Positions 23,103-51,722 of a stretch of DNA of 57,246 nucleotides are shown piece by piece. A program made the translations under genes and the position numbers. The notes beneath the pieces are model-generated. The model had not been told where the DNA came from. It was given only the letters and a program-made list of their open reading frames with translations, and ran no database searches. The stretch covers positions 2,283-59,528 of the forward strand of contig SUTQ01000004.1 of NCBI GenBank assembly GCA_015062805.1, written 5' to 3'. The number at the start of each line of letters is the position of its first letter. Within the stretch, counting starts at the first letter, position 1. Origin of the DNA: Methanosphaera stadtmanae. Its GTDB lineage: Archaea; Methanobacteriota; Methanobacteria; Methanobacteriales; Methanobacteriaceae.

Positions 23103-23834
23103 GTGTTCAAACTAGTATTAAGTGACCCAAGCATATTTAAAACAAGTTTTGATGCAATATCATCAATCGTTGACGAAGTACAAATTGAAGTAGATTCAGA
23201 TGGACTAAGATTGAATGCAATAGATAGAAGCCACATTACATATGTACATTTAGAATTAAAAGAAAGTTTATTCGATATTTATGAATGTGATAAACCAATC
23301 AAATTAAATTTAGATACTGAAGAATTAATGAAAGTACTCAAAAGATCTAAATCTGATGATGTAATGGAATTAACAGTTGATGCAGGAAGTCTTATAATAA
23401 CATTTGAAGGTGCAATTAAGAAAACATTCAAAGTAAAACTCATAGATTTAGAATATGATACACCAGCACAACCGCAAATAGAATATCCAGTAAACCTTTC
23501 AATACCTATTTCAACCTTAAAAGAAGCAATTCAGGATATTGAAATAGTTGCAGATAGGGTATCATTTAATGTTGATGAAGATAATCTTACATTAGAAGCA
23601 GTAGGTGATTTTGCTGATGCGAAAGTAGAATATTTACATGGTGAAAAAATATCTGAAACCGCAAAAGCAATATATGCAATTGAGAATATTAAAGAAATGT
23701 TAAAAGCAGAAAAATTTGCTGACAAAACCTATGTACAGTTAGGGGATGACATGCCATTAACTTTAGTTTTAGAATTATTAAATGATGAAGGAGAACTATC
23801 ATTTTTATTAGCTCCTAGAATAGAAGAAGAATAA
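23103..23834 (+). CDS. pcn: DNA polymerase sliding clamp PCNA
   Basis: 243 residues from a GTG preceded by [32 protein letters not shown] and the central-loop region with [18 protein letters not shown] match archaeal PCNA, and it ends in LLAPRIEEE, the usual C-terminal strand. It forms the trimeric ring that tethers polymerases, ligase, FEN1 and, in archaea that have it, EndoQ. The neighbouring GINS gene is a conserved pairing. Confidence 0.97.
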
Positions 23835-40099: not shown

Positions 40100-40330
40100 A
40101 AACTTCATTTATTAAATAAAAAAGTGAACCTAGGGAACCTGGGGGATAGCTTTGTCGAAAGACATGGAATCTTGCAAAAGAAGTTCAAGATCTCGCGGGT
40201 TGAAGGGTGATATCATCCATAACCTATGGGACATGGGAGATAGCTTTGTTAATAGTTATAAATGTTAACATAGAATCATAGTAAAATATGAAGTCCATTC
40301 CACTCTATTATTATAGAGATGTTTTTTAAT
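40100..40330 (+). ncRNA. Candidate TnpB guide (omega) RNA with duplicated module
   Basis: The 240 bases after tnpB are unlike AT-rich intergenic DNA. A 29-base block at 40127-40155 recurs at 40221-40249 with four differences (core GATAGCTTTGT); each copy runs into a hairpin (TGTC-GAAA-GACA at 40153-40164; TGTTAA/TTAACA at 40247-40270) and then ACATRGAATC (40162-40171; 40268-40277). Between them GGTT/AACC encloses GGGTG-ATAT-CATCC. The position matches omega RNAs that overlap the right end of tnpB elements; the boundaries and the guide segment are not known. Confidence 0.5.
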
Positions 40331-40360
40331 AAATTTTTTTCAAGAAAAATAATTTATAAA

Positions 40361-43829: not shown

Positions 43830-44662
43830 TTTTTCATTTACACTTTTTTTATAATTTTTCTTAAGAAATATTTACTGTTCTATATATTGACTTTTTTTAA
43901 TGCAGTTTAAACTCCTCTTTTTTTAATTTGAAATGGTATATTTTGTCAACTATATGAAACGCTTTTTTGAAGTTTATTGAAAAATATGTAATGGGAAAAC
44001 ACAAATCTGCATATAAAAAAAGGATATTATGGATATTAGTTCTTTAGATTAATCTGGAAAAATGCTACCAACATGAATCAAAAGGAAAGTCAAAGTATCA
44101 ATAAAAACTATTTAGAAATTAAAGACAACATACAGCACAATACAATCCACCTTTGACGAACTAAAAGGAATGAAATTGATCAATAGCAACAAAACCTGGA
44201 AATAAATGGTATGCTATCTCATTGAAAATAAAAGATTAGAATGAAAGTTCAAAGGCTATAATTGTATTTTCATAATAAAAACAAGAGTTTTAATTTTTTA
44301 AAAATTAATGTCTGTAAAATAAGATTTGATTATTTAAAATGGTATGCTAAGAGTAATCCACTTCATGTTTTATCACAGCATTTATCTAAGCAAGTCACCT
44401 TTGTTTTAAACAATGTTTACTTTTGCACCACATGGATTGTTCGTTTCATCGGTTACTAAAGTCAAGCTAATCAACCCAATTGTATCATTTATTATCGCTT
44501 AATTATAGTCTACTGTATCGTTTCTATGACAGTGTCACACCTCTCGATGTATGTCAATTAAGAGCATCATGTTTCAATATGGTGTGTGGAATTTCCTCAG
44601 TAAAAAATTTACCGTAAACTGTGCTTTAGCTTACCAAAAATAATCATTAATTAAAATAATAA
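43830..44662. other. 833-base non-coding stretch, possible decayed gene
   Basis: No convincing gene. A frame through 44140-44250 reads like protein (TFDELKGMKLINSNKTWK) but is cut by stops, and other frames continue similarly, which suggests remnants. AAATGGTATGCTA occurs at 44214-44226 and 44337-44349. The 44440-44640 part is less AT-rich than the rest and could hold a small RNA or old transposon end, but I see no recognisable family. Confidence 0.35.

Positions 44663-51579: not shown

Positions 51580-51722
<143 letters not shown>

Follow-up and report, generated by a model that had tools for sequence, protein, structure and literature searches.

A probable tandem array of omegaRNA scaffolds beside the tnpB gene of Methanosphaera

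The window analysed here, a stretch of 57,246 nucleotides from Methanosphaera stadtmanae, carries the only tnpB gene of its genome (38998..40089, plus strand, 363 aa). TnpB proteins are a family of RNA-guided DNA-cutting enzymes, from which CRISPR-Cas12 evolved. The product of this gene has the OrfB_IS605 and Cas12f1-like TNB domains of Pfam, its nearest natural relative of solved structure is ISDra2 TnpB (PDB search, E 5e-38), and the alignment shows an intact triad of RuvC D, E and D motifs. The identified neighbours of tnpB and the repeats described below are a glycosyltransferase gene and a ubiD-like gene. The window also holds an archaeal RNase P RNA (44342-44634) and a tRNA match spread over 143 nt (51580-51722), probably an intron-containing tRNA gene.

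A repeat starts 37 nt past the stop codon of tnpB, on the same strand. Its 29-nt block (40127-40155) recurs at 40221-40249, at a spacing of 94 and with four changes (86% identity), just as the initial annotation had it. Folding also returned the hairpin ascribed to each copy: UGUC-GAAA-GACA in the first, hereafter unit A (40153-40164), and UGUUAAUA/UGUUAACA in the second, unit B (40247-40270). Per unit, folding gives a first stem (CCUAGG-GAA-CCUGGG in A, CCUAUG-GGA-CAUGGG in B), then this hairpin, then one further hairpin. In the omegaRNA of ISDra2, the GAA in the loop of stem 1 pairs with a UUC that precedes AA and the guide, and stem 1 is followed by stem 2 around stem 3 and by stem 4 (PMC10097598). 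The module has the four stems and the loop pseudoknot in the same order. Unit A (40127..40188, plus strand) comprises stem 1 (40129-40134/40138-40143), the stem 2/3 hairpin (40150-40167), stem 4 (40170-40181) and a pseudoknot between GAAC (40135-40138) and GUUC (40183-40186), followed by AA. Unit B (40221..40298, plus strand) has its stem 1 at 40223-40228/40232-40237, stem 2/3 at 40244-40273, stem 4 at 40276-40291, and pairs GGAC (40229-40232) with GUCC (40293-40296). That both units are complete TnpB omegaRNA scaffolds is well supported. The span first proposed for the module, 40127-40277, was too short, since unit A ends at 40188 and unit B at about 40298; it omits the pseudoknot strand of both units and the last hairpin of unit B.

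There is room for a guide 3' of unit A. By analogy with ISDra2 (PMC10097598), a putative 16-nt guide, GATCTCGCGGGTTGAA, occupies 40189..40204 on the plus strand, and its first 12 nt are identical in a related genome, G116. Between this guide and unit B lies a small hairpin, GGGTGATATCATCC (40205..40218, plus strand), whose sequence is not conserved in G116. Unit B is followed by the hairpin CTCTATTATTATAGAG and T-runs (40303..40340, plus strand). This terminator-like end takes up part of the stretch in which unit B would have its guide, is largely common with G116, and its hairpin is recognisable in both G116 and G114.

The module belongs to an RNA family. Of the 139 genomes of the taxonomic family, 33 contain its 14-nt core pattern, and the reversed control pattern gave no match. 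We aligned 29 genomic copies, none of them from the window. Covariation in this alignment is strong: 85.9% of the cells are paired, against 71.3% in shuffles, and double-change cells number 136 against 57. The covariance model R1 was made from it. At E <0.01, R1 matches the window in two places only, namely 40125-40189 (39.4 bits, E 2.2e-7) and 40219-40299 (36.4 bits, E 1.2e-6), although model E-values are rough. The repeat is thereby beyond chance, as a model that had never seen the window scores exactly both units. The next best score in the 57 kb, 17.8 bits at 23724-23809 (E 0.048), may be a decayed module or chance. Among the 150 R1 matches listed in the taxonomic family, at least 21 share their strand with a listed tnpB and sit -13 to 111 nt downstream of it; at least one is found up to 300 nt upstream, and no listed match has the opposite strand. 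Beyond archaea, R1 recognises bacterial IS200/IS605 elements on plasmids of Peptoclostridium (E 1.5e-10), Brevibacillus (4e-8) and Paenibacillus (2e-4), where its matches follow tnpB directly or overlap its end. Two Deinococcus tnpB loci give weak matches at the right place (E 0.15 and 0.7), and the ISDra2-type end can be read there, e.g. GAATCACGCGACTTCAGTCGTGTGAGGTTCAA. No Rfam 15 family exceeds its gathering score at the window module, and five related loci searched up to an E of 1 gave no match except a sub-threshold overlap with Ref70 (E 0.17).

The pseudoknot is kept by compensatory change, since unit A pairs GAAC with GUUC and unit B pairs GGAC with GUCC; elsewhere the combinations include GAGC/GCTC, GGAT/ATCC, GAGA/TCTC, GTGA/TCAC, GTGG/CCAC, GTAC/GTAC and GGTC/GACC. 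With the 3' strand assigned by eye, 31 of 33 units have at least three Watson-Crick pairs, whereas 2000 shuffles gave a mean of 16.8 and a maximum of 25. A blind rule, in which the 3' strand is taken from the coordinates of R1, a model that itself lacks the pseudoknot pairing, still finds such pairs in 76 of 111 units (shuffled mean 42, maximum 56). Related sequences are not independent, so these shuffles overstate significance somewhat. The minimum-energy folds of several single array units are no better than shuffles, and the claim of structure hence rests on covariation and on the models. One helix of R1, P1, which joins a GAA upstream of stem 1 to the 3' UUC, is probably wrong, because this UUC covaries with the loop of stem 1 instead; the module is nevertheless detected by R1. 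A group of Methanobrevibacter-like TnpB loci (L018, L028, L031, L061, L069) seems to have its pseudoknot strand, placed by eye, at a more distal 3' position (AGTC/GACT, AGAC/GTCT before CTATA), and the guide would therefore start later than in the ISDra2 type.

Tandem units recur in relatives. At the syntenic locus of four Methanosphaera-type genomes we found two units in the genome of the window (G000), two in G116, six in G114 and five in G122. Adjacent scaffolds are separated by 33-35 nt, enough for a guide of 16 nt; several of these intervals also hold a small hairpin. OmegaRNAs were said to have normally one scaffold, and the other TnpB loci scanned bear this out, with one module each or none. 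Likewise, when other genomes are scanned with R2, a model made from the units at array loci, many of their TnpB loci show a single module. No tandem pair outside the genus appeared among the matches listed, in large scans that used stricter filters. Arrays of two or three units that lack a tnpB are also found near tuf-rps10 (L085 3060-3373; L087 3758-4051; L088 2594-2762; L165 2303-2514), downstream of these genes in G000, G116 and G114. They have a hairpin and a T-run after the last unit. G000 and G116 share the guide-position sequence GACTTGAGATTAGTACTAA without any change, and behind the penultimate unit their first 19 nt agree fully. G110 has no module next to its tnpB; just two were found in this genome, as a pair some 117 kb from the gene, and they form an array near rps10 on the opposite strand. 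An apparent reverse complementarity between the spacer in the window and one spacer of the rps10 array (L085) was seen by eye and set aside; both spacers contain palindromes. Also, a tree of the units was left unused because it was poorly supported.

Taken together, the identity of the scaffolds, their pseudoknots, the recurrence of tandems in relatives, synteny, the selection on tnpB described below and the arrays away from tnpB speak for a tandem array. In our view the region is therefore probably a tandem omegaRNA array of the resident TnpB, a transcript with two scaffolds, each of them bound and trimmed. Structurally, the two-unit TnpB guide RNA first proposed has held up, with two omegaRNA scaffolds, compensated pseudoknots and tandems in four related genomes. 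We infer the rest: that the region is transcribed and processed, that TnpB binds it, that DNA is targeted, and of what kind the targets are. A transcript from tnpB would run through both scaffolds. Processing of the mRNA that encodes it has been documented for one TnpB (PMC10278001). Here TnpB would bind and trim each scaffold, and separate RNA-protein complexes, one per scaffold, would form. The guide of unit A would begin at 40189. Unit B, ending at the terminator-like hairpin, would be either a second guide carrier or the 3' end of the array.

This last ambiguity, which arises because the guide position of unit B overlaps CTCTATTATTATAGAG and the T-runs, bears on the best surviving alternative. 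Only unit A might be a working guide RNA, and unit B an omegaRNA-derived 3' cap, a terminator partner or a decoy titrating TnpB, with no programmable guide. Units of type B do come last in the arrays of G000 and G116 and are followed there by a similar palindrome and T-runs, the rps10 arrays end likewise, and unit B is less conserved than unit A between these two genomes (76% against 95% identity, with about 58% at the synonymous sites of tnpB). Yet unit B retains all four stems and a compensated pseudoknot, and the five consecutive units of G122, at a regular spacing of 34-35 nt, look like repeated guides rather than a guide and its cap. We consider this alternative unlikely, and each unit may be a working guide. 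A recent duplication of A into B was rejected, since the two are 53% identical overall while unit A is 95% identical across species.

The history of the locus bears on another alternative, that the units are right ends of a transposon in duplicate, left behind by IS200/IS605 insertions that were nested or repeated, and have no current function. OmegaRNA scaffolds do form part of IS200/IS605 right ends, and in G114 the A-B pair is itself repeated. Yet the order glycosyltransferase-tnpB-array-ubiD is common to G000, G116, G114 and G122, so the tandems have persisted at the locus while TnpB diverged (83% identity to that of the window in G116, 63% in G114 and 51% in G122), and their stems and pseudoknots have been kept by compensatory change. 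The glycosyltransferase side of the locus is also found in G109, G110 and G113, and in G124 tnpB adjoins ubiD. Judged from its substitutions between G000 and G116 (dN 0.096, dS 0.606), tnpB is under purifying selection. The Y1 transposase (PF01797) is absent from the genome of the window and from 19 of the 20 genomes of the genus, where draft assemblies may hide a copy, and its sole trace in these 20 is one fragment in G114. The transposase gene (tnpA) expected of a mobile IS200/IS605 element thus appears to be missing, bearing in mind that solo-tnpB elements exist and that assemblies have gaps. This TnpB is most likely stably inherited and resident. The duplicated element end evoked in the initial annotation is very improbable, because TnpBs of only 51-83% identity still have the tandems beside them and the search of the genus yielded no intact transposase. 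Even less likely is a leader acting in cis, or a riboswitch-like RNA family, with no relation to TnpB. Standalone modules some 10-80 nt upstream of host-gene start codons favour this reading. We dropped it as the main one because the module has a same-strand site directly behind tnpB in several lineages, bacteria among them, because it matches the ISDra2 omegaRNA and its pseudoknot part by part, and because of the pseudoknot test; the lack of any Rfam match further disfavours it.

The tandem omegaRNA array is accompanied by modules in other contexts. The initial annotation proposed a covariance search to ask whether the module always follows tnpB. It was found directly behind tnpB in several lineages and is also present away from it. 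The distant modules are of the same RNA family and not an unrelated repeat. In many genomes of the Methanobrevibacter-like genus g10, a tnpB-less omegaRNA-like module lies between a secE-like gene and spt5/nusG (L039 1500-1591; L040, L042, L043, L044, L063, L074). Its 3' adjoining sequence, ATAACTTTTAACTTAATGTATGATTTT, is nearly the same across species and the pseudoknot GAAG/CTTC is kept; it is possibly a domesticated guide RNA or a leader. In three genomes, an ehbA-like gene (MFLNRIIYGIEFFVRLV) is preceded at a distance of about 21-23 nt by a single module with its stems kept (L086 2507-2597, which is C15:109006-109096 of the genome of the window; L167 1118-1210; L090 395-491). Further single modules lie upstream of host genes at L076, L077, L079 (FBPase-like), L096 (ilvC-like), L163 (purM-like), L164 (TBP-like) and L161 (Drg-like GTPase), gene names being drawn from first residues only. 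In all cases read, modules upstream of host genes have the orientation of the gene. The single-contig genome G124 (L158-L164) has one tnpB and seven dispersed modules, four of them with a similar stem, TTAATCTAAACTA...TAGTTTATT.

What the guides might target was searched in two ways. Guide A has no other site in its own genome at three or fewer mismatches over 18 nt (pattern search), and the guide of the rps10 array has one site with three mismatches in that genome, none being convincing. Viral contigs contain no exact 18-nt match to either guide. If the nuclease is intact and its guide conserved, with no chromosomal target found, this would be compatible with defence or with the policing of a mobile element. 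A broader picture, to which we give slightly less than even credence, is that in this genus TnpB is retained as a host gene, immobile and nuclease-competent, with tandem multi-guide omegaRNA arrays in cis and, near rps10, in trans, some of whose guides are conserved between species. Guides would then be supplied as from a CRISPR array, directly from omegaRNA and without CRISPR repeats. How a guide array originated from one guide RNA per transposon is an open question in the evolution of Cas12. If our reading is true, a natural tandem array of whole omegaRNAs beside a fixed and selected TnpB would show, in an organism alive today, one route that this change could have taken. It would also offer a very small nuclease with a multi-guide system already in place.

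The RNA and the protein belong to the known TnpB-omegaRNA kind. The searchable literature did not reveal a tandem array that several species have at a syntenic locus, and its novelty is provisional. The system closest to ours, ISDra2 TnpB-omegaRNA of Deinococcus radiodurans (PMC10097598), shares with it the protein family, the RuvC motifs, the scaffold just 3' of tnpB, the order of stems 1-4 and the pairing of the stem 1 loop with the UUC before the guide. It differs in having one scaffold where we found two and up to six, and longer units; here, moreover, no transposase was found in the genome and tnpB sits at a syntenic chromosomal locus. Trans-encoded omegaRNAs have already been described, and tnpB-less omegaRNAs and non-autonomous relatives of IS200/IS605 are known. 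These too are guide-RNA scaffolds away from tnpB, whereas here they form tandem arrays, at syntenic loci in several species and with some guides conserved. TldR proteins are nuclease-dead domesticated TnpBs (PMC13418256), which the host likewise keeps outside a mobile element. In contrast to them, the TnpB of the window has its RuvC D, E and D motifs intact, and no associated target gene was identified. Type V CRISPR arrays resemble our array in alternating scaffolds with unique spacers and in supplying several guides to one effector of the TnpB/Cas12 superfamily. Yet their direct repeats are short and nearly identical, whereas the units described here are whole scaffolds, few in number and strongly diverged (53% between A and B).
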